A stretch of DNA of 56,822 bases, from positions 1 through 56,822 of the forward strand of contig JAFYJW010000032.1 of the NCBI GenBank assembly GCA_017537925.1, in the 5' to 3' direction. The number at the start of each line of letters is the position of its first letter. Within the stretch, counting starts at the first letter, position 1. A program made the position numbers and the translations under genes. The DNA comes from Synergistes sp. (GTDB lineage: Bacteria; Synergistota; Synergistia; Synergistales; Synergistaceae). Shown here piece after piece: positions 1,060-15,403 of this stretch. A model generated the notes under the pieces. The model saw nothing but the letters and a program-made list of their open reading frames with translations. It did no database searches and was not told where the DNA came from.

Positions 1060-1623
1060 TCAGCAGTTTTCTGTAGTGAAGTTGACGTCGCTGTCCTTAA
1101 GCAGAGGCGCTTTTCTGTCCTTTTCGGAGAGAGTGGGTTCCAAAACTCCGCGCCAGTCCACGCCTATCTGCGGATCGTTCCACGCTACGGAGCGGTCTTC
1201 CTGCGGGCAGTAGAAGTCGTCGACCTTATACTGCAGCTCGCAGTTTTCAGAAAGAGTCATAAAAGCATGTCCGAAGCCCCTCGGAATCCAAAGCTGCCTG
1301 CGGTTTTCCTCAGAAAGCTCGACCGCGACCCATTTCGTATAGTACTTTGAGCCCTTGCGCAGATCCACCGCTACGTCGAGGATGCGCCCCATCGTGCAGC
1401 GCACTAATTTCGTCTGGGAGTGCGGGAATCGCTGGAAATGTATGCCGCGCAGGACGCCTTTTTCTCTTGAAAGGCTGTGCCCGTCCTGAACGAAATCGGC
1501 CTTCAGGCCGAGCCCGTCGAGAGTGCGCTTTGAATATGACTCGCAGTAGTAGCCGCGGCTGTCTTCAAAATATTTCGGTTCAAGAAGAAAGACTCCCGGG
1601 ACTTCAAGCTCTGTTATCTTCAT
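1060..1623 (-). CDS. rfbC: dTDP-4-dehydrorhamnose 3,5-epimerase
   Basis: A 187-residue cupin protein of the usual RmlC/RfbC length. It isomerises dTDP-4-keto-6-deoxyglucose at C3 and C5 to dTDP-4-keto-L-rhamnose in the cytoplasm. The family signature is complete: His62 in RGIHFQ is the catalytic base and Tyr132 the probable acid. An IPRGFGHAF segment lies at about 113-121. The gene lies 17 nt downstream of rfbA. No rfbD (the reductase finishing dTDP-L-rhamnose) is present in the window; an aminotransferase sits just upstream instead. The epimerised keto sugar may therefore be aminated rather than reduced, though rfbD could lie elsewhere in the genome. Confidence 0.95.
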   Translation of the reverse strand: MKITELEVPGVFLLEPKYFEDSRGYYCESYSKRTLDGLGLKADFVQDGHSLSREKGVLRGIHFQRFPHSQTKLVRCTMGRILDVAVDLRKGSKYYTKWVAVELSEENRRQLWIPRGFGHAFMTLSENCELQYKVDDFYCPQEDRSVAWNDPQIGVDWRGVLEPTLSEKDRKAPLLKDSDVNFTTENC

Positions 1624-1640
1624 TACGGAATATCCCCTTT

Positions 1641-2510
1641 TTACTTTTCGTTCGCGGTCGTGAGAAGATACTCGGCATAGTCCGTTTTGCCGAGCTCTTT
1701 CGCCATGGCCTTAAGCATACCCGCGTCGATGAATTTCATTCTGTAGGCTATCTCTTCAAGGCACGCGACATAATATCCCTGTCTCGACTGTACGGCTTCC
1801 ACAAACTGAGCGGCTTTGAGCATACCTTTCGGAGAGCCGGTATCGAGCCACGCCATTCCACGTCCGAGAAGCTCGACCTTCAGTTCGCCCATATCCTTAT
1901 AAACATTATTGACGGATGTTATTTCTATTTCGCCCCTTGCGGAAGGCTTTACGTTTTTTGCTATCTCTATGACCCTGTTGTCATAGAAATACAGTCCGGG
2001 CACAGCGTAATTGGACTTGGGTTTTGCAGGTTTTTCCTCGATGGAGATGACTCTGTTCTCCGAGTCAAACTCAACCACTCCGAATTCCTTCGGGTTCTTT
2101 ACGGGATATCCGAATATCGTGGCGCCCTTTTCGCGCGCGCACGCGCGCTTCAGAATATCCGAAAGCTTCTGTCCGTAGAAGATATTGTCCCCGAGAATCA
2201 GGCATACGTTGTCGCGCCCTATGAAATCTTCCCCGAGGATAAAGGCGTCCGCAAGCCCGCGCGGCTCTTTCTGCACGGCATAGCTGAATTTCACGCCGAA
2301 ACAGCTTCCGTCGCCGAGCAGCTTTTCATACTGCGGCAGGTCGTCGGGAGTAGATATAAGCAGAATGTCCCTGATGCCGGCGAGCATAAGCACCGAAAGC
2401 GGATAATAGACCATAGGCTTGTCGTATATCGGAAGCAGCTGCTTCGAAACGGATTTTGTTATCGGGTAGAGGCGGGTTCCTTTTCCGCCTGCCAACACTA
2501 TTCCCTTCAT
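1641..2510 (-). CDS. rfbA: Glucose-1-phosphate thymidylyltransferase
   Basis: A 289-residue nucleotidyltransferase that makes dTDP-glucose from dTTP and glucose-1-phosphate, the entry step of the dTDP-sugar pathway. The N-terminal signature [20 protein letters not shown] runs from about residue 8 to 27. It is followed by [11 protein letters not shown] and by the EEKP element (about 157-160) that contacts the sugar phosphate. Length and motifs match RmlA/RfbA throughout. It sits between the DegT aminotransferase and rfbC in the same direction. The matching dehydratase rfbB is the first gene of the same run, 12 kb upstream, so the pathway genes bracket the acyl cassette. Confidence 0.96.
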
Positions 2511-2569: not shown

Positions 2570-3700
2570 CTACTTCCCAAGAAATTCCTTTATGCAGTCG
2601 GTTACGGTCTTGACGTCGTCATATGAGAGGCGCATGTGCATCGGCAAAGAGAGCAGATGGTCGCTCGCGTACGCGGCATTCGGGCATGTGCCTGCAGCAT
2701 AGGCGTACATACGGTACTGAGTGTTGTCGACATAATGTACGCCGGGGTATATATCATGCTGGTTGAGATACATCATAAGCCCCTCTCTGTCGTCTATCAT
2801 TATCTGATAGAGGTGGCGAGCCGATTCGCAGCCTTCCGGGACCGTGATGAATTTGATCTTGTCCGCGCACGGAGCCAGCATCTGGTCATACCATGACGCA
2901 AGCTGGCGTCTGTAAGCGTTATCCCTGTCAAGGTGCGGCAGCTGCGCAAGCCCTATCGCCGCCACTACGGAATTTCCGTGGTATTTGTTGCCGACGTATT
3001 CGACGTCGTAGCGCCATTTGTAATTGCCGCCGGTTGAGCGCGAGTAGGTATCTTTGTTTATTCCGAGCCACGCTTTCCTGCGCGCTATCTTGTCAAACTC
3101 GGCGTTTTTGAAGCAGAGCATCCCGCTGTCGGCGGTAGGAAGGTTTTTGACTGCCTGGAAGGAATAGTTTACGGATTCCGCTTCTTTTCCCGGTATCTCG
3201 CCGTGCAGCCGCGTGCCGGCCATGTGCGCCGCGTCAAGTATCAGCTTGAGGTCATGCTCTTTGCAGATCTTTACGACCTCTTCATATCTTCCGGTATTGC
3301 CGCCGAGTCCCACGAAAAGCACCGCGCGCGTCTTATCGGTGATATGTTTGCGGACGGATTCCGGGTCGAGGCAGAGAGTATCGTCTATATCGGCGAAAAC
3401 GGCCTTGAGCCCGGCAAGCACTATCGCGTGGTTTGATGAAATGAAGGTCATCGGCGTTGTGATGACTTCGTCTCCGTCCTGCCAGCCGTACCCTTCTTTC
3501 AGTATGTCGAAAGTAAGGTTGAGCGCCGCGGTAGCGGAACCGAGGTAATAAGCGTTCGGCAGAGAAGTGTACTCTTTCCATTTCTCTTCAAACTCGATCG
3601 TTTTGAAACCCATGCCGGTCCAGCCTTTCTCAAGGCATTCTCTGATTCCGGAAAGGCAGCTTTCGACATCAAACGTAGGTACGAACAGTTGGATAGCCAT
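2570..3700 (-). CDS. DegT/DnrJ/EryC1 family PLP sugar aminotransferase
   Basis: A 376-residue protein of the PLP-dependent sugar aminotransferase family, which converts a nucleotide 4-keto (or 3-keto) sugar to the amino sugar using glutamate. The expected pieces are visible: a TTPMTFISS segment near 81-89, Asp156 in LILDAAH (contacts the PLP pyridine nitrogen), and Lys185 in [12 protein letters not shown] as the Schiff-base lysine. The start has an AAAGGAGAG ribosome-binding site. Its position next to rfbA and rfbC and the absence of rfbD suggest a dTDP-4-keto-6-deoxy sugar as substrate (inference). Sequence alone does not fix regiochemistry, so WecE-, VioA-, DesI- or PseC-like activity all remain possible. 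Confidence 0.88.
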
Positions 3701-3804: not shown

Positions 3805-4895
3805 TTACCCCTGCCGCGATGGATGCAGCCTCTTTTTTGCTCCGGGCACTATAAGTATCGCGGCAAGCGCGGCGCAGAACGAACATAACAGATAAACGGG
3901 CAGCAGGATGTCGTAGCTTACGTTATATCCCACCGCCGGGAATATCACGTGAAGACCCTGTGGTTCAAATAGAGCGCAAGGCTGAACTCGCCGCAGATAA
4001 GGCAAGGCCGTTCATATCTGCTGAAAAAACCCGCAGTCGACGCTTTGCCGCTGAACGATACGGAAACAGCAGCCGCAAGCAGGAGCACAAGAAGGAAATC
4101 GGCATGCGACCTCCCTGTGACAGACGAATGCAGCAGCACGGCGATATAGCAGAAGAGCTCCGCCGCAGAAAGAATATGCGCGCTTAACGCCGCCTCCCTA
4201 ATGCCTGCCGAGACCCTGAAGCAAAACACCCCAAGAGAGATGCCGGCAACAGCCCTGACAAGGCCGCTGTAAAACATTCCCTGCCATCGGTACGGATTCT
4301 CAAGGCTGCCCATCGTGAAAAAGAGCCATCCGTATGACAGCGCTGATAGCAGCATAAATATCAGTGGATACTGTTTGTCTTTCAATATCAAAAGCAGCGG
4401 GAAGAGCAGCAGCATAGAGATCAGCATCGCGGAAATATACCATGTGGGCGTATTCACCCAATAGCCCGGAATGCCGGACATGCGCAGCAGCAGAAGCTCA
4501 GGGACGGATCTCAGAGCATATCCTGCCGCCTGCGCCGCAGAGAAGCGGCCTATTATCATTCTGACCGCGAAGGATATTAAAAATGCAAACAGAAAACATG
4601 GGTATATACGCGCCGTTTTGCGTTTTACAAAAGCATATGTATCGGAAAAGAGCGCTCCGGACGAATACCTGTCTATATTCATCGCCATAAGCAGACCGGA
4701 AACTATGAAGAAAAAATCGACGCCGATATAGCCGCCCTGAAATACGGATGTAAGAGAGCGAGTCGGCGTCAGATAGCAGGAATGATACAGAACTACCGCA
4801 AGGCAGAAAACAAGCCTCCATAATTCTATGGAGACTGTGACGGAAGCATGGACGGCAGAGCCGGCACGGTCGCCGCCGGGCGGCGTAGAGGCCAT
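3805..4895 (-). pseudogene. Acyltransferase-3 family membrane protein, frameshifted near its C-terminus
   Basis: From the ATG at 4895 the frame encodes 316 residues of an acyltransferase-3 protein: an IELWRLVFCLAVVLYHSCY start with the family Arg and His, a GGYIGVDFFFIVSGLL segment, then about nine hydrophobic segments. It stops at a TGA (3945-3947) right after SLALYLNHRVF, the usual penultimate family motif. In the -1 frame, reading continues directly as HVIFPAVGYNVSYDILLPVYLLC and further to 3805, supplying the missing last transmembrane helix and a basic tail (KKRLHPSRQG). A single missing base around 3950-3955 explains this. There is no homopolymer or slippery heptamer, so it is a mutation or a sequencing error rather than programmed slippage. 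The likely role is O-acylation of the surface glycan. Confidence 0.72.
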
Positions 4896-4908: not shown

Positions 4909-6306
4909 CTAAACGGGCAGCTGGGAGTAGAGAATCTTTCCCGCCCCGCTGCGCGGCAGCCGGTCTATCACGACTACCCTGAAAGACGTGCGGAGTATTC
5001 CCGTGGTGTCCGAGAGCAGAGAGACTATCGCTTCCGACAGATCAGGTCTGGTCACGTAGATCCGCATCTCTCTGTCGTCTCCGGCGCAGGCGCAGTCCGC
5101 CCCAAGCTTGGAATAGATGATCTTTTCGCAGTCGTCAAGCCCGACCCTGACTCCGAAAAGCTTAAGGAAACGGCTTTTGCGGCCGGTAATAAAATAGAAG
5201 CCGTCTTCGTCTCTGCGCGCTATGTCTCCGGTGTGGCGGAAACCGTACCATTCGTCCCCTTTAAGGAGTTCCTTGCGGTTTTCGGCATACCCCATCGTAA
5301 CGTTGGGACCGCAGTAGCACATTTCTCCCTCGCCGGGACCTTCGATAAAGTCTCTTTTATCGTCTATTATAGACAGCTCCCCGCCGGGAATCGCTTTCCC
5401 TATGCTTCCCTGCTTGGAAACGGCATACTCCGGCGGAAGGTATGCCATTCGCGCGCTGCACTCAGTCTGTCCGTAAGTCGCTATGAACTTTTTGCCTGTA
5501 CGCTGTGCATACTCGGCAAACTCCAGATAGATCTTCTCCTTCAGCTTGCCGCCGCCCTGCGTAAGAATTTTCAGATGAGGCCATTCTTTGGCCGTGAAAC
5601 GCAGGCGCCTTAATATCTCATAGCTGTACGGCACGCCGGTAAATACCGTGATATCCTGTGAATCGTAAAAATCCCAGAATTCCGGGGACATAAGGCTCTT
5701 TGACGAGGCCACGACGGTGGCGCCCCTGTAAAGATAGCTGTTTATGACGGAAAGACCCATAGTATAGTACATAGGAAGATCCGCCATCGGACGGTCATCT
5801 TCGCAGGCGCCGAAAAATTCCGATACATATCTGGCGCTTGTTTCAAGGTTCGTCAGTTTATGCCTGACGAGTTTGGGACTGCCGGTCGATCCCGACGTAC
5901 ATAGAAGCATCGCAAGATCTTTGTTGACAGGGTAGAAGCGATGTCCCGTCTCCGCAAGCACGTAGCCGTAACGCCTGAAAACGGCGCGGCATTCCGGAAA
6001 CTCGCCAAGGCAGCGCTCCGGAAGCCACATATAGGGCGGTGTGTAAGTCTGCTTTAAAACGGCAAGCTGTGTCCTGTCGATCGCTGCACTCAGCAAAAGA
6101 GGCACAGTGCCGTTGTCCATGAACGAAAGATAACCGGCTATCGCGCCGGCGCTGTTTTCGCAAAGGCAGAAGACAACAGCTCCGCTGCGCGCGAAGTTCT
6201 TCATCTCCGACATGAAGGAGCAGAGCTCTCCAAAGGATATGCTCAGCCCCTGGTCGTCTATGACAGCAGCCCTGTCACGGGGCCTGGCTTCCAGCCCTAA
6301 GTACAA
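4909..6306 (-). CDS. AMP-dependent acyl ligase (acyl-ACP/acyl-CoA synthetase-like)
   Basis: A 465-residue ANL-superfamily adenylating enzyme. The ATP-binding A3 core is MLLCTSGSTGSPKLVRHK (about 152-169), A5 is YGQTECSARM (about 287-296), and the A7/A8 hinge is HTGDIARRDEDG followed by GRKSRFLKLFGVRV. A C-terminal lysine lies in SGAGKILYSQ, the A10 position. It should activate a carboxylic acid as the acyl-AMP and pass it to a thiol, here most plausibly the phosphopantetheine of the ACP encoded directly downstream of the next gene boundary at 6347-6568. It starts at TTG, with AGAGGTG about 9 nt before it. At 465 residues it is shorter than most fatty acyl-CoA synthetases, closer to carrier-loading ligases. 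The substrate is not predictable. Confidence 0.82.
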   Translation of the reverse strand: MYLGLEARPRDRAAVIDDQGLSISFGELCSFMSEMKNFARSGAVVFCLCENSAGAIAGYLSFMDNGTVPLLLSAAIDRTQLAVLKQTYTPPYMWLPERCLGEFPECRAVFRRYGYVLAETGHRFYPVNKDLAMLLCTSGSTGSPKLVRHKLTNLETSARYVSEFFGACEDDRPMADLPMYYTMGLSVINSYLYRGATVVASSKSLMSPEFWDFYDSQDITVFTGVPYSYEILRRLRFTAKEWPHLKILTQGGGKLKEKIYLEFAEYAQRTGKKFIATYGQTECSARMAYLPPEYAVSKQGSIGKAIPGGELSIIDDKRDFIEGPGEGEMCYCGPNVTMGYAENRKELLKGDEWYGFRHTGDIARRDEDGFYFITGRKSRFLKLFGVRVGLDDCEKIIYSKLGADCACAGDDREMRIYVTRPDLSEAIVSLLSDTTGILRTSFRVVVIDRLPRSGAGKILYSQLPV

Positions 6307-6346
6307 ACCTTACACCTCTCGTACGAACAGACTATGCCGGTTTGAT

Positions 6347-6568
6347 CTAACCCATAAAGTTCAGTATATCCTGAACCGTAACGAATGTTCTGAGATCGTC
6401 TCTTGTGAGTTTCTTCGAGAATTTGTCTTCCATGAGCACTATAAGGCTGAGCGCTGCCATCGAATCCCATGTGTCGATATCTTCAAGCGCGGTCTCCGGC
6501 TTCAGTTCGCCTTCAGCCATATCAAGAACTTCTTCCTCAAGAAGCGCAAGTTTTTCTTTGATCTCCAT
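6347..6568 (-). CDS. Acyl carrier protein (first of two)
   Basis: A 73-residue acidic helical protein with the phosphopantetheine attachment site in DTWDSMAAL (Ser at about residue 36). The DSM serine would carry the 4'-phosphopantetheine arm that holds an acyl chain as a thioester. GGAGG lies 7 nt before the ATG. It is flanked by an SDR reductase and the AMP ligase, in a locus far from any general fatty-acid genes, so it is a specialised carrier rather than the housekeeping AcpP (which typically has a GADSLDTVEL motif). The recognition helix after the serine lacks the AcpP consensus. Confidence 0.85.
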   Translation of the reverse strand: MEIKEKLALLEEEVLDMAEGELKPETALEDIDTWDSMAALSLIVLMEDKFSKKLTRDDLRTFVTVQDILNFMG

Positions 6569-6643
6569 TGTATTTCCTCCTCTTTTGGACAGCCCCGTTT
6601 GCCGGGCTGCTATTGCTGTTGTTAATTATATTCCCGTTCCGCG

Positions 6644-7384
6644 TTAAAGGACCATGCAGCCGTCCGCGCCGATTATCTGCCCGGACACATATGACGCGGA
6701 ATCTGAAGCAAGAAATAGATAAACGTTCGCTATATCTTCCGGCAGGGCCATCCGGCCGAGCCCTATATTGCCTGTCTTCTCCTCAAAACGGCCGGACATT
6801 TCAGCCACGAGTCTTTTTGTGGCGACCATCCCCGGAGCTACCGCGTTGACCCTTATATTCTGCGGGGCAAGCTCTTTAGCCGCGGATTTTGTCAAAGCGA
6901 CGACCGCGCCCTTGGCGGCGGAGTACGCCAACTGTCCTGCCGCTCCGTTGGTGCCTACGATGCTCGCCATGTTTATTATGCTGCCGCCGCCGCTCTTTGC
7001 CATAAGACGCGAGGCGTACTGCATCATCTCGATCATCGCGAAGACGTCCACCTCAAACATCTTCCTCAGCTTATCCTTGGAGATCATGCCGAGCATCTCG
7101 TATGAGATGATAGCGGCGTTGTTCGCAAGCACGTCGAGCTTTCCGCATTCTTTTTTCACACGCATGAAAGTCGCTCTTACGCTGTCGGAAGCCGTTATAT
7201 CGGCCCTGACATGTATTATCTCGCCGCCGGAAGCAAGCCTGCCTTCCTGCGTTTCAAATTCGGCCGAAGGCAGATCAAGCGAGTAAACGCGCGCACCCGC
7301 CTGCGCAAAGGTCTCGGCTATAGCTTTGCCGATTCCTCTTGCCGCCCCGGTCACGACGCAGATCTTATTTTCAAGCCGAAGCAT
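6644..7384 (-). CDS. SDR-family 3-oxoacyl-ACP reductase-like protein
   Basis: A 246-residue classical short-chain dehydrogenase. The nucleotide-binding TGAARGIG lies at 12-19, NNAA near 88-91, and the catalytic Ser141, Tyr154 and Lys158 (YSAAK) are all present. The C-terminal GQIIGADGCMVL ending resembles FabG. With neighbouring KASIII enzymes and ACPs, the likely reaction is reduction of a beta-ketoacyl-ACP to the 3-hydroxyacyl-ACP. Asp37 after the second strand (YSLDLPS) would favour NADH over NADPH by the usual SDR rule (inference). A sugar ketoreductase role cannot be excluded. Confidence 0.8.
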   Translation of the reverse strand: MLRLENKICVVTGAARGIGKAIAETFAQAGARVYSLDLPSAEFETQEGRLASGGEIIHVRADITASDSVRATFMRVKKECGKLDVLANNAAIISYEMLGMISKDKLRKMFEVDVFAMIEMMQYASRLMAKSGGGSIINMASIVGTNGAAGQLAYSAAKGAVVALTKSAAKELAPQNIRVNAVAPGMVATKRLVAEMSGRFEEKTGNIGLGRMALPEDIANVYLFLASDSASYVSGQIIGADGCMVL

Positions 7385-7398
7385 CCTGTCCCCGCCCT

Positions 7399-7647
7399 TT
7401 ATGCTTTCATATCTACGCCGTAGCGCTCAAGGATCTTTATCCCGTTCAGGTATGACCCGTAATGCAGAACGTCTTCCGTCTCGAACATGACGTCGAAAAT
7501 ATCTTCAAGACGCGAGATCAGCGCCATATGCGCAAGGGAATCCCATTTATGGACGCTCTCGAACGTAAAGGATTCGTTCAGTTCGCTTTCGGCAGCTCCG
7601 AAAATATTCATAAAGACTTCATTGTATTTGCGCAGGTTCTCGCCCAT
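7399..7647 (-). CDS. Acyl carrier protein (second of two)
   Basis: An 82-residue carrier protein with the attachment serine in HKWDSLAHMAL. An upstream in-frame ATG exists at 7653, but AGGAGG abuts it too closely. The ATG at 7647 is 7 nt from that ribosome-binding site and is chosen. It diverges from the other ACP of the locus and has a longer C-terminal helix (GIKILERYGVDMKA). It lies between the SDR reductase and the first KASIII gene. Two carriers with two condensing enzymes and two reductases suggests either two successive extension steps or separate loading and tailoring carriers. Confidence 0.83.
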   Translation of the reverse strand: MGENLRKYNEVFMNIFGAAESELNESFTFESVHKWDSLAHMALISRLEDIFDVMFETEDVLHYGSYLNGIKILERYGVDMKA

Positions 7648-7677
7648 TTCCATTCCTCCTGTCGGTACGCCTCATAC

Positions 7678-8772
7678 CTATATATCAGTATAATCTATAA
7701 TCCCGTCTTTGTAATACGCGTCTGTTTCAAGAACCGGCAGCACCGCGTCCGGGGATATGAACGCGTCAACTATGCCCCACGAAAGACCTATGCCGAAGCC
7801 CATCATGAAGACATGCATCAGTGAAGAGTCCTGCACGCCGCCCAGGGCGTCGCAGAGCGTCAGAGGTATGGACATGCCTCCGGTATTGCCGTATCTGTCA
7901 AGCGAGCGGTGAACTTTTTCCTTGGCCAGCTTCAGCTTGTTAATAAGCTGTTTTACTATATACCAGTTGGCCTGATGTATCGCAAACAAGTCATAATCGG
8001 ACGCCGCAGCGCCGGTCTTATCAAAGAAAGCTTTGGCTGCCTTCGGAACGTCTGAGATGGAAAACTGGAAAACGTCGGCCCCGTTCATTATCTGGTAGTA
8101 AGGCATATGCTCGCACTCGTCGCGGCCGACAAAAGGTTCATGCGGCGCGGAATTATCCCTCGCTCCTCCTGCCGGTATGATTATAGCCCTGTATCTGTCG
8201 CCGTCGCTCCAGATGCCGCCTTTGATCTGAGGAGCGTTTTCAGACCTTTCTATCAGCACGGCCGCCCCGCAGTCGCCGAAGAGCATCGCGGACGACTTGT
8301 CGTTGGGCCACATGGCTTTGCTTGACGTCTCGGCGACTATCACCAGCGCCATCTTCATATCGGACGAAGACATCATCGAGCAGGCCGTCTGAAACGCGCA
8401 GACAAAGCCGGAGCAGCCGAGGTTGACGTCGAATACGGCGCAGTCCTGCGAGAGGCCGAGCCTGTGCTGGAGCACAAAAGAGGTGGCGGGACGCTTGTAA
8501 TCCGGCGACTGGGTAACAAAGATCAGAGCCCCGACAGAAGCCCTGTCTATATTCTTTTCCCGCAGCAGCCTGTCGGCGGCTTCGAAGCCGAGATCCGACG
8601 CGGTCTGTTCTTCGCGGGTCACATGCGTTTTTTCTATGCCGGTGAACGCCATGAATTTATAGACGTTCTCCTCGCCGAATTTCGGGATATAGCTTTTTAT
8701 ATCAACGACCTGTTTCGGCACTGCCACGGAGATTCCCCTGATCGCTATATCGCTGAAGTTAAAGTAAGGCAT
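7678..8772 (-). CDS. 3-oxoacyl-ACP synthase III (KASIII/FabH-like), copy 1
   Basis: A 364-residue thiolase-fold condensing enzyme. The catalytic triad is intact: Cys120 in FDVNLGCSGFV, His266 in IHQANW, and Asn296 in RYGNTGG. These enzymes condense an acyl-CoA starter with malonyl-ACP, or transfer acyl groups in the decarboxylation-independent branch. The protein is about 40 residues longer than housekeeping FabH. It belongs with the KASIII subgroup found in glycan-modification islands. It is nearly contiguous with its paralogue, whose stop codon lies 2 nt upstream of this ATG; the two were probably produced by tandem duplication and may be translationally coupled. Confidence 0.88.
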   Translation of the reverse strand: MPYFNFSDIAIRGISVAVPKQVVDIKSYIPKFGEENVYKFMAFTGIEKTHVTREEQTASDLGFEAADRLLREKNIDRASVGALIFVTQSPDYKRPATSFVLQHRLGLSQDCAVFDVNLGCSGFVCAFQTACSMMSSSDMKMALVIVAETSSKAMWPNDKSSAMLFGDCGAAVLIERSENAPQIKGGIWSDGDRYRAIIIPAGGARDNSAPHEPFVGRDECEHMPYYQIMNGADVFQFSISDVPKAAKAFFDKTGAAASDYDLFAIHQANWYIVKQLINKLKLAKEKVHRSLDRYGNTGGMSIPLTLCDALGGVQDSSLMHVFMMGFGIGLSWGIVDAFISPDAVLPVLETDAYYKDGIIDYTDI

Positions 8773-8774
8773 CT

Positions 8775-9851
8775 CTATTCCTCCTGTTCCGAAGGCGAAA
8801 CGAGGCCGTCGTCAAAGCTTTCGTCCGTTTTGAGCAGCGGCAGGATATCGCAGGCTTTGATCTTCGCATCCACTATGCCCCATGAAAGGCCGACTCCGAA
8901 GCCGCACATCAGGGGACGTATTATCCTGTCGCCGTTCTCATTGCCGTAGTATTTGGTAAGAGCAGTTGGGATCGACGCAGAACTCGTGTTTGCGAATTCG
9001 TCTATTGAGACCAGCATCTTCTCGAGAGGGAAGCCGGTGCGTTTTGCGACCTGCTTCATAACGTACAGGTTGGCCTGATGAAGCACGAGACAGTCGTAGT
9101 CGTCGGGAGTTGTCCCGGCGTCCCGCATGAATTCGTTTATCATTGCCGGGACGTCGGTGATGGTGAAGTTGAAAACGCCGACGCCGTCCATCAGCGAGCC
9201 GTATTCTTTCCACTTCAGGTGTCTGTGGTGGGAGTTGACGTGAATGATGGACTTATAGCGGCTGCCGTCCGTTCTGAAAGCGCAGGCGATCGGTTCGGCG
9301 CTTTCGTCGCGCTCAAGAAGCACGGCCGCAGCGGCGTCGCCGAAGAGCATCTTCCCCGAGTCGTCTTTAGGGTACAGCGTATTAAGTATCTGATCCCTGT
9401 ATGCGGTGTCACCCAAAAGCAGCAGCGCATATTTCAGCTTCGAGCTCTGCATCAGGCTGGCCGCAATGTTTATCCCGTTCACAAAACCGGAGCAGCCAAG
9501 GTTCACGTCAAAAGCGATGCAGTCCATCGGCAGACCGAGCCTGTACTGAAGCACGCACGCGGTGGCGGGTTTTGCGTAATCAGGCGTCTGCGTAACGAAA
9601 ACAAGCGCGCCTATCTCATCGACACAGATATTTCTGCCCTCAAGAATCTCTTTTGCGGCGGCGCACGCCAGATCCGCTGTGGTCTGCTTTTCCGGCGATA
9701 CGTACTGCCCCATGACCCCGGTGGATTTCTTAAACTTCTGCACCGTCGCCTCTCCCATCAGCGGCTTAAACCTGTCAACATCCAGCCATGACGTGGAAAC
9801 AGACGTCAGAAGCGCAGAGATCCTTATATTGTCAAATACAGATGTTATCAT
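8775..9851 (-). CDS. 3-oxoacyl-ACP synthase III (KASIII/FabH-like), copy 2
   Basis: A 358-residue paralogue of the next gene. The same triad is preserved at nearly the same positions: Cys120 in FDVNLGCSGFV, His258 in LHQANLY and Asn288 in EFANTSS. Shared blocks such as ALVFVTQTPDYAKPATA versus ALIFVTQSPDYKRPATS confirm common ancestry. The active-site asparagine loop differs (NTSSAS versus NTGGMS), so starter preference may differ. Both copies look catalytically competent, which argues against one being a chain-length-factor-like partner. Known analogues lie in flagellin glycosylation islands, where a KASIII, an ACP and a ketoreductase build the hydroxyacyl group put on a 4-amino sugar. Confidence 0.88.
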   Translation of the reverse strand: MITSVFDNIRISALLTSVSTSWLDVDRFKPLMGEATVQKFKKSTGVMGQYVSPEKQTTADLACAAAKEILEGRNICVDEIGALVFVTQTPDYAKPATACVLQYRLGLPMDCIAFDVNLGCSGFVNGINIAASLMQSSKLKYALLLLGDTAYRDQILNTLYPKDDSGKMLFGDAAAAVLLERDESAEPIACAFRTDGSRYKSIIHVNSHHRHLKWKEYGSLMDGVGVFNFTITDVPAMINEFMRDAGTTPDDYDCLVLHQANLYVMKQVAKRTGFPLEKMLVSIDEFANTSSASIPTALTKYYGNENGDRIIRPLMCGFGVGLSWGIVDAKIKACDILPLLKTDESFDDGLVSPSEQEE

Positions 9852-9884
9852 CTAAACCTCCGGTAAGCTCTCAGTGTCGTGTCT

Positions 9885-10643
9885 TTATGCAAGACGTCCG
9901 CTGTCAATGGAGACAGAAGTACCCGTTATCGTTTTCGCGCTGTCGCTGAGCAGAAACGCGCACGTCGCCGCGACTTCGTCCGGCTGCACGATGCCGGCGT
10001 AATGCTGCGCAAGATGAGAAGCTGCGGCGGAGGATTCCTTCCACTCCTTGAAAAAGACGTCCATCATACCTGTGTTTACCCAGGTCGGACGGACAGTGTT
10101 GACTCTTATTCCGCGGCCCCCCAGTTCCTTTGCCATGCATCTTGCTGCGGCTTCAATTGCCGCCTTGGAGGTGCAGTAGGAAAGCTTGGCTTTATCGCCG
10201 AGCAGGCTTGCGACGGAAGAGACCGCGACGATGCTGGCCGGCGTTGATACGTTTTTCTTTTTCGTGATGCATTTAGCGAATTCCACAAAAGCATAAAGGT
10301 TTACCGTCATTACGGCGTTGATATCGGAAGTCCTGAGCATCGCAAGAGGCCGCATCTGTGAAAGCCCCGCGCTGTAGACAAGTCCCGAGAACGGTCCCAT
10401 ATCGCTTACCGCGGCGTCGACTACCGGCGCTATCGTATCGGTATTGCTGAAATCGCAGACGTAATAATGATGACCTTCGCCTTCCATGGCTGAAAGCGTT
10501 TCCTTAAGCTTATCCTCTCTGCGAGCCGCTATCGCCACCCTGGCGCCGAGTTTGCTCAGATATACGGCGACCGCGCTGCCGATCCCGGAAGAAGCTCCGG
10601 CCACAAATATATTTTTACCCGTAAGATCAAGCGGATTCAACAT
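9885..10643 (-). CDS. SDR-family oxidoreductase (second reductase of the acyl cassette)
   Basis: A 252-residue classical SDR. The glycine motif GASSGIG is at 16-22, an SAG element stands in place of NNAG near 91-93, and Ser142/143, Tyr156 and Lys160 complete the active site. Arg41-Arg42 after the second strand (AARREDK) suggest NADPH preference. It is more divergent from FabG than the other SDR of the locus. Its likely role is reduction of a ketoacyl-ACP or keto sugar in the same pathway. It lies between the KASIII pair and the GNAT gene in one direction with short gaps. Confidence 0.78.
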   Translation of the reverse strand: MLNPLDLTGKNIFVAGASSGIGSAVAVYLSKLGARVAIAARREDKLKETLSAMEGEGHHYYVCDFSNTDTIAPVVDAAVSDMGPFSGLVYSAGLSQMRPLAMLRTSDINAVMTVNLYAFVEFAKCITKKKNVSTPASIVAVSSVASLLGDKAKLSYCTSKAAIEAAARCMAKELGGRGIRVNTVRPTWVNTGMMDVFFKEWKESSAAASHLAQHYAGIVQPDEVAATCAFLLSDSAKTITGTSVSIDSGRLA

Positions 10644-10673
10644 TTTATGTTCCCTCCCCGCCGGTGCAGGCAG

Positions 10674-11222
10674 TTATTCTATCGAACAGTACTCGTAATG
10701 CTCTTTTTTCTTGAGTTCGTCCCACGTCGCTCTTGTCATCGCCGTTATGGCGACATCGTGGAATTTCCCGTATTTCAGTATGTGCTGCTTCAAAACGCCC
10801 TCTACGTCGCAGCCGGTAAGCCTGGCAAGCTTGACGAGCTGCCGGTTGTCCGTCATTACGTACGAATAGAATTTATTAAGGCCGAGCTTATAGAATATAT
10901 AATCGCGCATATTGCAGCGGATGTCCATTATGAGGTTCAGAGAGCGGTATTTTTTCTCGGCTATAAACATAAGCCCCGCCTCGCACCTTTTGTTTACATA
11001 GTCGATATCAGTTATGCAGTTCAGCCCGACAGGCACTCCGTCGCACCAGATTATCCAGCGCATCTGAGTCTTGTCCTGCTGAAGCCTTTTGAACCATTCC
11101 CTCTGTTTTTCCATATCGACCTTGACGTCATTAAAGAGGTATTCTGTGATATCGGGGCGCGCCCTCCACTCCATCAGGCGTTCGAGGTCATCTTCAGTTA
11201 CTCTTTTCAGTTCAACTTTCAT
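10674..11222 (-). CDS. GNAT-family N-acyltransferase (PseH/RimJ-like), probable amino-sugar acylase
   Basis: A 182-residue GNAT protein. The N-terminus (LMEWRARPDITEYLF, about 16-30) resembles PseH and RimJ-type enzymes. PseH acetylates the 4-amino group of a nucleotide-linked 4-amino-4,6-dideoxy sugar. The LMFIAEKKYRSLNLIMD region around 88-104 occupies the acyl-donor site. Encoded beside KASIII, ACP and SDR genes, it may use an acyl-ACP or acyl-CoA made by them rather than acetyl-CoA (inference). An AGTAGGGAG ribosome-binding site precedes the ATG. The amino-sugar substrate would come from the DegT aminotransferase of the same locus. Confidence 0.75.
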   Translation of the reverse strand: MKVELKRVTEDDLERLMEWRARPDITEYLFNDVKVDMEKQREWFKRLQQDKTQMRWIIWCDGVPVGLNCITDIDYVNKRCEAGLMFIAEKKYRSLNLIMDIRCNMRDYIFYKLGLNKFYSYVMTDNRQLVKLARLTGCDVEGVLKQHILKYGKFHDVAITAMTRATWDELKKKEHYEYCSIE

Positions 11223-11234
11223 AATAAAAACTCC

Positions 11235-14200
11235 CTACTTCTTCAGATGTCTTTCATCAAGCTCTTTGAAGAACTGGTCCCACTGTGAACGTATCAGCGT
11301 CTGGTTGTACTGGTCAAGTACCCACGAACGGTTCTGATTCTCAACCGGACGGATAAAATCTTCATATGTCATTTCAGATATCGCGTTCGTGTCAAAGACC
11401 TTAATGCCCTTGTTGATGAAGAATCTATAATACTCACTGTCCCCTGGCAGATAAACTTTCTTTCCCATATAGATGAGCATATAGATGTTCGTAGCGCCGC
11501 AGATCCTCTCCGAGCCGAATATCGCTATATCAACATGCCACAGCTTTGCCGTATATTCATCAAGCGGTATAACATGCGTGAGCAGATCGAGCTTTTCGCC
11601 GAATATTTGCGCTGCTTTTCTCTTTACCGCATTGACGTACTCCCATCCTCCGTACTGGCCGTTCAGTCCGCTGTCGCCGTATGCCATCGGGATAAATATC
11701 TCCAGATCTTCGTCGGCAAACTTTTTCAGGCTGTCCAGTATCTTCAGGTGATTATTGAACTGGAACATATTATGAGCTATCTGGATGCGAACCGGGGAAT
11801 CCGCAGGTTTATCAGGCGGGCGAACTGCGTCGATGGCGTCGTTGGAGTTCCCGTTCCTTCTTGTCGGAAGCGCGATATATATGCACTTGGCGTCTGTTTT
11901 GAATTCGCTTTTGAACCGCTCTTCATCGGTAGGCGCCGTCATTACGATATACGGGATGACTTCCCTGATGCGGCGGTTCAGCTTGTTGATTATCCTGTCC
12001 TTGAAAGAATGTTCTTCTCTTTTCCAGAGCCAGATATCCCCGCTCCATTCGATCCATGCGAGTTTTTTATGGAACTTCCTGCACAGAGCAAGTATTGCGA
12101 CCGGCAGTGTGCCTATAAACATCCCGTGAATGATTATATTGTCGGCGTTGGAGAAGAGGCGGTAAAGGTAACGTGCTTTTTTAAGTCTTCCGCCTTCGCA
12201 GAGATAAAGTATGTCGTCTCTTTCGGCAAGCTCCGGCACATATTTGAGAATGGATTTTTCCCTCATGATAAGGTATTTGTGGTCGGCCGCATCTTCTCTT
12301 GCGTCGACCATTTTCCAGTAGCCGCCGAGCGTATGAGGTGTCCCGAAGAAGAGATACAGATATTTTATGCGCTGCTTTTTCAGCGGCTCGAATGCATGCC
12401 CCGATTCCATACAATCATAAAATTCCTGCCATTTTTCCACAACGGCGTTATAATCCAGCATCGCTTTCGCCCAGTCGAAATCCTTATCTCTGTCCGGCAG
12501 AGGAGCGATAAAATCGTCAAAGCTCATATTGGATATGTCATCAAGCGCTGTAACAGGGTATCCGTTGTCGGAAAGGAACTTATACAGGAAGGTCCCTTTC
12601 GGCAGGAAGATCTTTTTCCTCATACGGGCCAGATAAAGCAGAAGATTGGGATTCAGCGGCCGGTGACCTCCGAATACCGCGATATCAATTTTGTCAAGGA
12701 AGCGGAAATAAGTATCTTCATCAACGTTTCCGTTGTTGAGAAGTTTGGGGCGGAACCCGAGTACCTTAGCGCCGTAGTCGGAAATTGACTTTCGGTAGGC
12801 ATCCGAAGAGGGCGTTCCGTATTCGTTGGCCATAGTGTAGTGCATTGGGATGTATACTTCCTCGATCTCGCTGCGGTGCCCTTTCAGCAGCGAGAGGCTG
12901 TTTATCAGATTTTTATGTCCGTTGTAGGTCAGCCCGTCGTAGCCCACAAGTATCACCGGTTTGTGCGGAGGAAGCTTTGTAGCTGCGCTTACTTGTTCAA
13001 CAAGGTCTTCGTAGGAAGCATACTGTTCGACCCTTCGTTCCTCGGCTTTTTCTTTGGCCAGCATCTCCGCTTCAGCTTCCGCTTCAGCTTCGGCTTCAGC
13101 CTGTTTTACCGCGTCTTCCACCCGTTTGTTTGCTTTTGCTTTTTTCGCCTGTTTTACTATTTTTTCAAACCACGGCAGGTCTTCGCAGGATGAGGCCGCT
13201 TCTTTTTCCTCTCTTTTTTCGGCGGCACCCATATCCGTACTGAAAGCAGGCTGTTCATCGCAGAGCGGAACTTTTTCCGCCAGCGGAAGTTCAATATATA
13301 TCAGTCCGCTCTTGTCACGCGCTATGGCTGTGCCGTCTTCTCTTTCATTCCTGTATTCGCTGAAGGAGGCTTCCTCAGCCGCCTGTGTCTCTATATCCTT
13401 TTCGCAAGCCGCCGTTTCGCGGTCATCCCTGACCTCATCGGCGGTACAGACCGGGCCTTCTTCTTTTGCGGAAAAGATATCGACTCCGGGGAACTCAAGG
13501 TATATCTCACCGCTTTTGTCGCGTTTTACGGCACGGCTCCCCGCGGAGCGCTTTATGCTCATGCGCCTGCTTTTCTTTAACTCTTCCTCGCGGAAGCGCT
13601 CTTCCTCCTCCGCTATAGCGCGGATACGCTCAAGCTCTTCCTTTACGGCCTCTTCGATAAGGACCCCGCGTTTTTCCTCCTCCTGCGCACGTCTTTCTTC
13701 GATAACATTCGTTAAGGCCTGCACATGTGATTCGGAAGGAGGCGTCGGCAGATCGAAATATTTGTAATAACCGCTGAAGGAACTGCCGTGCAGCGGCTTG
13801 TCTGAAGGCAGCGTAAGCCCCACGCAGAGAATATTGTCTCTTACATATTTTTGCAGACGGTTCTTTAATTTTTCTTTAAAGTTTTTGGCAGAATCGTTCC
13901 TCCAGTAAAGGAGATCGGTTGAATGCTCGATCCATACCGATTTTTTCAGGTTTTTCTTTTTTGCGCATATCAAAAGAAGAGGAAAGCCGAAAGCGCCCCT
14001 CAAAGACGAAAGCGAATGCCATACAACGACGTCGGCTTTTTTCATTTGTTTTTCAACGGCGCGGACGACGGCAAGCCTTTTTCTGAACGTGCGCTTTGCA
14101 GGCTTGTCAAGGAATATGAGCCCCGGGAAATCCAGCAGAACCGGGTAATTTTTTGTTACGTACTCCCTGTCGGCCATTATCAGGAACTTATGATCTTTCA

Positions 14201-14279
14201 GATCGAAGCGTTCCTGCATCATCTCTATTACGCGATATGTCCGTATCGTGTCCGACGGCAAAATATGCAAATAATTCAA
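11235..14279 (-). CDS. Giant tandem WecF-like (GT56) glycosyltransferase with a coiled-coil insertion
   Basis: A 1014-residue protein built from two copies of a WecF/TDP-Fuc4NAc-transferase-like unit. Unit A covers residues 1-180 plus 440-630, unit B 637-1014. Matching blocks include DHKFLIM (30-36) with DHKYLIM (666-672), VWIEHSTDLLYW (115-126) with AWIEWSGDIWLW (741-752), and NMSFDDFIAP (584-593) with EMTYEDFIRP (969-978). Unit A is split by a charged helical insertion (about 185-435). The insertion holds two copies of a short DKSGxIYxExP element (254-264, 322-332) and an (AE)6 run near 394-405. It starts at TTG. WecF transfers a dTDP-4-amino-6-deoxy sugar to a lipid-linked glycan, which suits the aminosugar genes here. 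One unit may be catalytic and the other a second transferase or scaffold. Confidence 0.72.
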   Translation of the reverse strand: MNYLHILPSDTIRTYRVIEMMQERFDLKDHKFLIMADREYVTKNYPVLLDFPGLIFLDKPAKRTFRKRLAVVRAVEKQMKKADVVVWHSLSSLRGAFGFPLLLICAKKKNLKKSVWIEHSTDLLYWRNDSAKNFKEKLKNRLQKYVRDNILCVGLTLPSDKPLHGSSFSGYYKYFDLPTPPSESHVQALTNVIEERRAQEEEKRGVLIEEAVKEELERIRAIAEEEERFREEELKKSRRMSIKRSAGSRAVKRDKSGEIYLEFPGVDIFSAKEEGPVCTADEVRDDRETAACEKDIETQAAEEASFSEYRNEREDGTAIARDKSGLIYIELPLAEKVPLCDEQPAFSTDMGAAEKREEKEAASSCEDLPWFEKIVKQAKKAKANKRVEDAVKQAEAEAEAEAEAEMLAKEKAEERRVEQYASYEDLVEQVSAATKLPPHKPVILVGYDGLTYNGHKNLINSLSLLKGHRSEIEEVYIPMHYTMANEYGTPSSDAYRKSISDYGAKVLGFRPKLLNNGNVDEDTYFRFLDKIDIAVFGGHRPLNPNLLLYLARMRKKIFLPKGTFLYKFLSDNGYPVTALDDISNMSFDDFIAPLPDRDKDFDWAKAMLDYNAVVEKWQEFYDCMESGHAFEPLKKQRIKYLYLFFGTPHTLGGYWKMVDAREDAADHKYLIMREKSILKYVPELAERDDILYLCEGGRLKKARYLYRLFSNADNIIIHGMFIGTLPVAILALCRKFHKKLAWIEWSGDIWLWKREEHSFKDRIINKLNRRIREVIPYIVMTAPTDEERFKSEFKTDAKCIYIALPTRRNGNSNDAIDAVRPPDKPADSPVRIQIAHNMFQFNNHLKILDSLKKFADEDLEIFIPMAYGDSGLNGQYGGWEYVNAVKRKAAQIFGEKLDLLTHVIPLDEYTAKLWHVDIAIFGSERICGATNIYMLIYMGKKVYLPGDSEYYRFFINKGIKVFDTNAISEMTYEDFIRPVENQNRSWVLDQYNQTLIRSQWDQFFKELDERHLKK

Positions 14280-14347: not shown

Positions 14348-15403
14348 TCAGGCGTTCGTGCCCAGCCTCTGGCACTGATATTTGCCGCTTATGATATCAT
14401 CCACCCATTTTTTGTTTTCAAGATACCAGTTCACGGTCTTTCTTATACCGCTGTCAAATGATTCCGACGGCTGCCAGCCGAGTTCGCGCTTTATCTTCGA
14501 CGCGTCTATCGCGTAGCGCCTGTCGTGTCCCGGGCGGTCCTTTACGAAAACAATCTGATCTTCATAGCGGCCGTTCTTTTTGGGAGCGATCTCGTCGAGT
14601 ATCGAGCATATCGTTTTTACTATCTCAATATTCTGCTTTTCACAGTTTCCGCCGATATTGTACGTTTCGCCCGGTTTGCCCTTCGTCATTACCGTATAAA
14701 GGGCGGAGCAGTGGTCGTCCACAAAGAGCCAGTCTCTGATATTTTTCCCGTCTCCGTATACCGGCAGCTCTTCTTCGTTAAGAGCTCTGTGTATTATCAG
14801 CGGTATAAGTTTTTCAGGGAACTGGCGGGGACCGTAGTTGTTGGAGCAGTTTGTGGTAAGGACGGGGAGTCCGAACGTATGATACCATGCGCGCACAAGG
14901 TGATCCGACGAAGCCTTTGACGCTGAATAGGGTGAATTCGGAGCATAGGGAGTGTCTTCGGTAAAATAGCCCGCGGCGCCGAGACTGCCGAATACTTCGT
15001 CAGTGGAGATATGCAGGAAGCGGAAAGCGTCTTTCGCTTCTCCGGCAAGAGATTCGTAATATCTGCGCGCGGCTGTAAGCATCGAAAAAGTGCCTTTTAT
15101 GTTTGTTTCAATAAAATCGCCGGGAGCGTCTATGGAACGATCCACATGGCTCTCAGCAGCAAGATGAAAAACGGCGGATACTCCGTATTTTTTTAAAGTG
15201 TCGAAAACGGAGGGGGTATTGCATATGTCTTCTTTTACAAAAACAAAATTCTCTTCGGGCAGATCCTCAAGCGATGAATAATTGCCCGCATAGGTAAGCT
15301 TGTCGAAAGCGACGACCCTGTTTCCCTTTGCGATAAGATAACGCGTAAGATTGCTTCCGATAAAGCCGGCCGCACCGGTGATAAGATAGGTTCGTTTTTC
15401 CAA
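14348..15403 (-). CDS. rfbB: dTDP-glucose 4,6-dehydratase
   Basis: A 351-residue extended SDR converting dTDP-glucose to dTDP-4-keto-6-deoxyglucose. Tyr159 and Lys163 (YSASK) and the catalytic Thr134-Asp135-Glu136 (HISTDEVFG) are in place, and the Rossmann motif TGAAGFIG starts at residue 9. It starts at TTG, with GGAGG 10 nt upstream, and is the first gene after the best promoter of the locus. The product is shared by the epimerase RfbC and the aminotransferase further downstream. The length and all motifs match RmlB/RfbB/RffG. Confidence 0.96.

Follow-up and report, generated by a model that had tools for sequence, protein, structure and literature searches.

A candidate carrier-protein-based acylation cassette within a predicted dTDP-4-amino-sugar operon of Synergistes

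The window analysed here, a stretch of 56,822 nucleotides covering positions 1 to 56,822 of contig JAFYJW010000032.1 from a Synergistes sp. genome (GCA_017537925.1), carries on its minus strand a dTDP-sugar operon in which a cassette of acyl-building genes is embedded. The eight open reading frames of the cassette (positions 4909-11222) are all intact and separated by gaps of 2 to 75 bases; Pfam and NCBIfam scans of the window proteins identify them as an AMP-forming ligase, two acyl carrier proteins (ACP), two short-chain dehydrogenases/reductases (SDR), two 3-ketoacyl-ACP synthases of the KASIII type and an acyltransferase of the GNAT family, bearing out the gene content proposed in an original prediction made from the letters of the window. 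That prediction placed the cassette between rfbB and an aminotransferase gene, which is correct but incomplete: the transcriptionally upstream side comprises rfbB and a glycosyltransferase of 1014 amino acids, and downstream a membrane acyltransferase gene precedes those for the DegT-type aminotransferase, RfbA and RfbC, so that the operon reads rfbB, glycosyltransferase, cassette, membrane acyltransferase, DegT, rfbA, rfbC. The genes of the cassette and then those around it are as follows.

4909..6306, minus strand: AMPlig, AMP-forming acyl ligase (PF00501, 127.8 bits; A3/A10 motifs; ANL fold; KAS-linked ligase clade)
6347..6568, minus strand: ACP_b, predicted carrier of the condensing (KASIII) module (PF00550, 27.3 bits; invariant serine of the DS motif)
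6644..7384, minus strand: SDR_b, assigned to the ligase module (PF13561, 199 bits; YxxxK; NAD-type Asp ending beta2; linked to AMPlig elsewhere)
7399..7653, minus strand: ACP_a, predicted carrier of the ligase module (DSL motif; NCBIfam ACP model, 20.2 bits; linkage to AMPlig)
7678..8772, minus strand: KAS_b, KASIII-type condensing enzyme lacking the coenzyme A (CoA) clamp (PF08541/PF08545; tree; residues)
8775..9851, minus strand: KAS_a, the other KASIII, belonging to an old lineage of its own (PF08541/PF08545; clade of 8 rows)
9885..10643, minus strand: SDR_a, predicted NADPH-type 3-ketoacyl reductase of the condensing module (PF13561, 162.6 bits; Arg ending beta2; YxxxK)
10674..11222, minus strand: GNAT of the PseH/SpeG fold, proposed N-acyltransferase (TIGR03585, 89.9 bits; fold match to SpeG and PseH)
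11235..14279, minus strand: tandem GT56 (WecF-like) glycosyltransferase (C-terminal copy matched by PF07429 and NF002756; similarity between the two halves, E 4e-38)
14348..15403, minus strand: rfbB, dTDP-glucose 4,6-dehydratase (TIGR01181, 468.5 bits, above cut-off)
3945..4895, minus strand: membrane acyltransferase, Acyl_transf_3 (PF01757, 77.4 bits; by tblastn, C-terminus in another frame than in the copy of same-genus genome G001)
2570..3700, minus strand: DegT-type sugar aminotransferase (PF01041, 248 bits; nearest TlmJ and ArnB in a PDB ranking)
1641..2510, minus strand: rfbA, glucose-1-phosphate thymidylyltransferase (TIGR01207, 476 bits, above cut-off)
1060..1623, minus strand: rfbC/rmlC, dTDP-4-keto-6-deoxyglucose 3,5-epimerase (TIGR01221, 226.4 bits against a cut-off of 155.75)

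The KASIII, ACP and SDR genes of the cassette are doubled, and the ligase and the GNAT are single. The catalytic residues are retained: Cys-His-Asn in both KASIII (the C-terminal domains score 72 and 83 bits), the ACP serine, YxxxK in both SDRs and the ligase motifs, with A3 and A10 invariant among 15 homologues. The divergence of ACP_a puts it beyond Pfam; it was recognised by the weak NCBIfam match, the DSL serine motif and alignment. The operon encodes no dehydratase or enoyl reductase and neither LuxE nor LuxC. The complete 14-gene block is colinear in G001, with amino acid identities of 87% for KAS_a, 91% for KAS_b, 96-97% for ACP_b and 86% for the ligase. For ten of 12 genes dN/dS is 0.02-0.07 (it was not computable for the GNAT and the glycosyltransferase), values that, with dS high and near or past saturation, can be read only as strong constraint. 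Because the order of the block is kept in G001, the cassette is not a chance array, and its genes are under strong purifying selection wherever this can be estimated.

The cassette is very probably dedicated to a sugar. The genome, rated 100% complete, encodes a single KASIII outside the cassette, in a region of contig C48 that also holds a separate ACP and SDR (housekeeping fabH/fabG/acpP), so the absence of another fabH and acpP, which the original prediction had named as fatal to its view of a self-contained sugar-acylation cassette, is not what is found. In a tree of 155 KASIII proteins (from a quick search, with SH-aLRT support and no bootstrap), the C48 FabH groups with other Synergistota FabH (SH-aLRT 100, stem 1.76), distant from both KAS_a and KAS_b. 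Among KASIII loci of named genomes, considered throughout as the best 80 matches and not as a census, 63 lie near a gene for a sugar aminotransferase or a sugar-type acyltransferase. These observations support the cassette being self-contained and portable. The parallels invoked in the original prediction were flagellin glycosylation islands; no protein of this complete genome matches the flagellin domain PF00669, so that flagellin is rejected as the target here and the acylated sugar is in all likelihood bound for another acceptor. One flippase-type and two Wzy/ligase-type proteins are encoded on other contigs.

The doubling of components, which was predicted and is real, is not a simple duplication. 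ACP_a homologues (at least 40 bits) are present in 13 of 13 loci with a ligase and in 1 of 67 without one (Fisher P = 4e-14, which overstates the strength because loci of related genomes are not independent, although the pattern spans Bacillota, Bacteroidota and Synergistota). SDR_b behaves similarly (10 of 13 against 1 of 67), whereas ACP_b, which resembles KAS-linked ACPs and belongs to a different subclass from ACP_a, is not associated with the ligase. Since ACP_a and SDR_b track the ligase and ACP_b does not, the three genes appear to form one unit, and the cassette most likely combines two old modules: a ligase module (AMPlig, ACP_a and SDR_b) and a condensing module (KAS_a/KAS_b, ACP_b and SDR_a). 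The KASIII pair itself consists, by phylogeny, of two apparently old, separate lineages. KAS_a belongs to a clade of 8 rows (SH-aLRT 99) that includes members from Ruminococcus, Lachnospiraceae and Bacteroidales, and all six of the KAS_a loci outside Synergistota also carry KAS_b; a recent tandem duplication is rejected, given that each synthase has its own relatives in other phyla. The second beta strand ends in Arg (NADPH-type) in SDR_a and in Asp (NAD-type) in SDR_b; as a general rule this division of cofactors was rejected, for it holds in the window and for most SDR_a homologues but not for those of SDR_b.

Homologues of the ligase occur in 21 of 188 Synergistota genomes. Most of these loci combine ACP_a-type ACP and SDR_b-type SDR genes, without KASIII, with LuxE, LuxC and often a split transketolase. 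The ligase tree splits, with support of 100/99, into a KAS-linked and a LuxE/LuxC-linked part. Because the window ligase falls among KAS-linked Clostridia, the phylogeny points to inheritance of the cassette together with the Clostridia type of ligase, and not to its assembly from the LuxE type of Synergistota. The recurrence of the ligase, ACP, SDR, LuxE and LuxC genes, often with the split transketolase, in Synergistota loci L062-L080 is an observation in its own right; there, the LuxC aldehyde and the transketolase may point to a sugar with a branched or extended chain. A still more elaborate locus of the same family as the window (L037) combines several KASIII and ACP genes with an AMP ligase, LuxE, LuxC and an acetolactate-synthase-like thiamine pyrophosphate enzyme.

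In FabH, the adenine of CoA is stacked by Trp32 and Arg151 and pantetheine is bound by Arg36 (PMC4606726). Among 150 cassette-type KASIII, Trp32 and Arg249 are retained in none and Arg36 in one; Trp32, Arg36 and Arg249 are all kept in 6 of 6 housekeeping FabH sampled (E. coli FabH served as the position ruler, and its numbering for C112, H244, N274, W32, R36 and R249 checked out). It appears somewhat probable that the cassette synthases use ACP-bound starters. The GNAT scores 89.9 bits with the PseH model TIGR03585, its closest NCBIfam model, just short of the cut-off of 93.1, and its structure model (predicted local distance difference test, pLDDT, 89) has the fold of SpeG and PseH; at the place of the glycine loop found in relatives that use CoA (for example RGRGLG; RGxGxG-like), its sequence is YRSLNLIM, the glycines of the CoA-binding P-loop being gone. 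Loss of the clamp in KASIII and of the loop in the GNAT both fit ACP-borne acyl donors. As a marker specific to KASIII cassettes, the P-loop loss was rejected, because a GNAT of the same type is found in a pseudaminic-acid locus. The GNATs most similar to that of the window (L204, 9754-10299; L205, 4853-5410) lie in such a locus, with an unassigned protein of about 534 amino acids as neighbour. The ligase, with a confident ANL-fold model (pLDDT 90), probably loads an acid onto ACP_a. Structure does not single out its substrate: the model matches oxalyl-CoA synthetase, MenE, MatB, CahJ and NRPS A-domains alike.

The sugar is probably L-configured, a point missed by the original prediction and one that gene content and structural ranking favour slightly. 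RmlC is present and no protein of the genome reaches the cut-off for RmlD (best score 48.5 against 224 bits), so the epimerised 4-keto sugar has no outlet to rhamnose. In the PDB ranking, TlmJ and ArnB come out as the nearest structures to the DegT aminotransferase, with WecE and QdtB far behind. The substrate of ArnB is an L-configured 4-ketosugar, and TlmJ comes from tallysomycin, with the amino sugar 4-amino-4,6-dideoxy-L-talose. The enzyme to which the window GNAT is related points the same way: PseH is the UDP-4-amino-4,6-dideoxy-L-AltNAc N-acetyltransferase and acts on N4 of an L-configured sugar nucleotide (PMC4363471). A locus from the same order (L203) encodes, beside an orthologous DegT (623 bits), rfbA, rfbB and rfbC, a GNAT whose P-loop is intact, and has no acyl cassette; this natural control ties the sugar to RmlC and marks the acyl kit as an addition to it. 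The glycosyltransferase consists of two GT56 copies, of which the C-terminal one passes the PF07429 cut-off (49.5 against 25 bits) and falls short of the WecF equivalog NF002756 (254.8 against 457). The first copy is interrupted by a long, low-complexity, charged insert at about residues 190-430.

The kind of system to which the cassette belongs is already known. The parallel drawn originally with the viosamine island of Pseudomonas syringae (vioA-vioM-vioT-vioS-vioB-vioR-acp), where mutants in vioR, vioA, vioB and vioT lose the modified sugar, is real: in both, one island brings together a dTDP-4-amino sugar with KASIII, reductase, ACP and acyltransferase, although in P. syringae the target is flagellin, KASIII and ACP are single, and the seven listed island genes include no ligase and no 3,5-epimerase (PMC3927599). 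A second precedent is the O-antigen R-group set wfpC-wfpG of Flavobacterium psychrophilum, which has two KASIII and is tied to a 3,5-dihydroxyhexanoyl group, proved by NMR, on Qui2NAc4N; as in the window, two 3-ketoacyl-ACP synthases and a dedicated ACP adjoin a 4-amino-sugar pathway, together with a ketoacyl reductase and an N4-acyltransferase, but the set acts on a UDP-sugar, has a PglD-type acyltransferase and a single ACP and reductase, and lacks an AMP ligase; the assignment of its genes is likewise a prediction (PMC6519341). Like these sets, the cassette has KASIII with Cys-His-Asn near a sugar aminotransferase and an ACP and reductase distinct from those of housekeeping fatty-acid synthesis; its acyltransferase, however, is a GNAT and not of the left-handed helix type of PglD, NeuD and VioB. 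The ligase module, by annotation, equals the trio of ACP, 3-oxoacyl-ACP reductase and AMP-dependent synthetase that accompanies luxE and luxC in flagellin islands of Aeromonas group II and Enterobacteriaceae (PMC7874193, PMC4875605). Those islands differ in having LuxE and LuxC and no listed KASIII, whereas the window ligase lies in the clade free of LuxE/LuxC. Thus, precedents for the KASIII pair and for the ligase module have been published separately; what is new is the combination of a ligase-primed, two-KASIII set with a GNAT transferase and a probably L-configured dTDP-4-amino sugar.

The explanation that we favour, by a modest degree, is a sugar-dedicated mini polyketide route on carrier proteins that would place a ligase-primed hydroxyacyl group on N4 of a dTDP-4-amino-4,6-dideoxyhexose. 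RfbA, RfbB and RfbC would yield dTDP-4-keto-L-rhamnose, and amination by DegT would give a dTDP-4-amino-4,6-dideoxy-L-hexose. AMPlig would adenylate a free small acid and pass it to ACP_a, with SDR_b, judging by linkage, setting the oxidation state. KAS_b would then extend the ACP-bound unit with malonyl-ACP_b, KAS_a would act on a second starter or carry out a second round, and SDR_a would use NADPH to reduce each 3-keto group. Because the operon lacks a dehydratase and an enoyl reductase, the hydroxyls would be retained, giving, by analogy with F. psychrophilum, a 3-hydroxy- or 3,5-dihydroxyacyl chain. The longer acyl group proposed originally is plausible on the same precedent, and a dihydroxyacyl product is an open prospect, at somewhat less than even chances. 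The PseH-like GNAT would transfer the acyl group from ACP to N4, and the tandem GT56 protein would deliver the acylated sugar to a lipid-linked surface glycan and, there being no flagellin, not to flagellin. A bolder version, which we regard as doubtful, is a line fully independent of CoA, with a ligase-primed ACP, two CoA-blind KASIII working from ACP to ACP and a loop-less GNAT, leading to a poly-hydroxyacyl group on an L-configured 4-amino sugar, an undescribed surface sugar.

Several points weigh against the favoured route. The system is known here from its genes, from which the biochemical steps are deduced; the L-configuration is argued from gene content and ranking, and loci of the C. 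symbiosum type lack rfbC. Clamp loss is common to sets with one KAS, including ligase-free ones, and is no specific pointer to ligase-made starters. GNATs with the same P-loop loss, 42-44% identical, are found in a pseudaminic-acid locus without KASIII, so that the loss is no proof of an ACP donor. The cofactor type of SDR_b varies among homologues, and the AMPlig model fits many ANL enzymes equally well.

The main competitor, which we consider unlikely, is that two different acyl groups are made, a 3-hydroxyacyl group by the condensing module and a second group, independently, by the ligase module, with the GNAT acylating the nitrogen and the membrane acyltransferase a hydroxyl or, where the tandem GT56 protein adds two sugars, the second of these. 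Two dedicated ACPs with separate partners, the KASIII-free ligase module of many Synergistota loci and the two transferases within the operon all speak for it. On the other hand, KAS_b directly adjoins ACP_a and SDR_b (and AMPlig) in the window and in ligase loci L094, L116, L120, L126 and L129, which suggests a single line; the window copy of the membrane acyltransferase has a C-terminal frameshift, and the donors of Acyl_transf_3 enzymes are usually small acyl groups. Less probable again is a simple group of the 3-hydroxybutyryl type, like that of P. syringae, with the second KASIII, ACP and SDR as backups or chain-length variants and the ligase salvaging 3-hydroxy acids: the minimal vio set of one KASIII, ACP and reductase does yield N-3-hydroxybutyryl (PMC3927599), but the two synthase lineages are retained together across phyla, the ACPs are of different subclasses and the copies are under purifying selection.

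A role in making a free lipid or small secondary metabolite, located in a sugar operon by chance, would agree with the 17 of the 80 loci whose retrieved stretch contains no sugar marker; it is made very improbable by the marker in the other 63, by the order kept within the sugar operon of a second species and by a similar combination with rfbA, rfbB, DegT, GT56 and Wzx in Clostridium symbiosum. The gene content, similar to that of type II fatty-acid synthesis, could finally denote a housekeeping set; this identity is rejected and practically without probability, given fabH, fabG and acpP on another contig and KASIII that lack the FabH clamp and lie far from FabH in the tree.

The set is widespread, which the original prediction missed, so that the locus is less singular than it supposed. 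Near-complete sets (KAS_b, SDR_a, ACP_b, ACP_a, SDR_b and AMP ligase) occur in nine of the 80 loci, namely in C. symbiosum ATCC 14940, Clostridium transplantifaecale, four other Clostridia/Lachnospiraceae, one Butyrivibrio and two Bacteroidota; Lachnospiraceae bacterium 526-35 has all seven parts, KAS_a included, and 44 loci have two or more KASIII. The C. symbiosum ATCC 14940 locus (L084) reads rfbA-rfbB-DegT-KAS_b-SDR_a-ACP_b-ACP_a-SDR_b-AMPlig, with a GT56 gene; it differs from the window in having a NeuD/PglD-type acyltransferase in place of the GNAT, no KAS_a, no rfbC, and genes for Wzx and a Wzy-like protein. With the priming sugar transferase also encoded there, its layout is, from gene content, that of a capsule or similar polysaccharide cluster. 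Unusual acyl substituents of amino sugars act as antigenic determinants on surface glycans, and the R-group genes of F. psychrophilum alter the antigenicity of its lipopolysaccharide (PMC6519341). The locus and its relatives in C. symbiosum and other gut bacteria accordingly offer a compact gene set that predicts new acylated sugars, as well as a clean case of KASIII that have seemingly given up CoA; for the ACP/reductase/AMP-ligase trio of flagellin islands, of unknown function, they suggest a role in priming ACP with a small acid.

Some related loci have features of their own. In three Bacteroidota loci (L116, L120 and L129) KAS_b adjoins a fast-evolving KASIII-like protein without the active-site Cys, two of which have lost more of the triad, which suggests an inactive partner subunit. 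The C. symbiosum cluster includes a carboxyltransferase of the acyl-CoA carboxylase beta type (L084, 16011-17483; 522 bits), and a gene of similar size is found in L097 (15902-17416), a possible private source of extender units. In L092, L098, L099, L102, L103, L110 and similar Bacteroidota loci, a protein of about 510 amino acids directly after KAS_b scores 31-49 bits with the AMP ligase and is probably a different adenylating enzyme with the same role.

Downstream of the cassette, the window membrane acyltransferase stops at 316 amino acids, and the final 40 or so residues of the 361-residue G001 protein lie in another frame, with the break near position 3948; this is either a sequencing slip or a genuine truncation. 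The minus strand of positions 1-1002 encodes a membrane protein that extends past the start of the contig. The corresponding position after rfbC in G001 is occupied by an acyltransferase-like gene (88 bits against the window acyltransferase), and a second acyltransferase may therefore be part of the operon.

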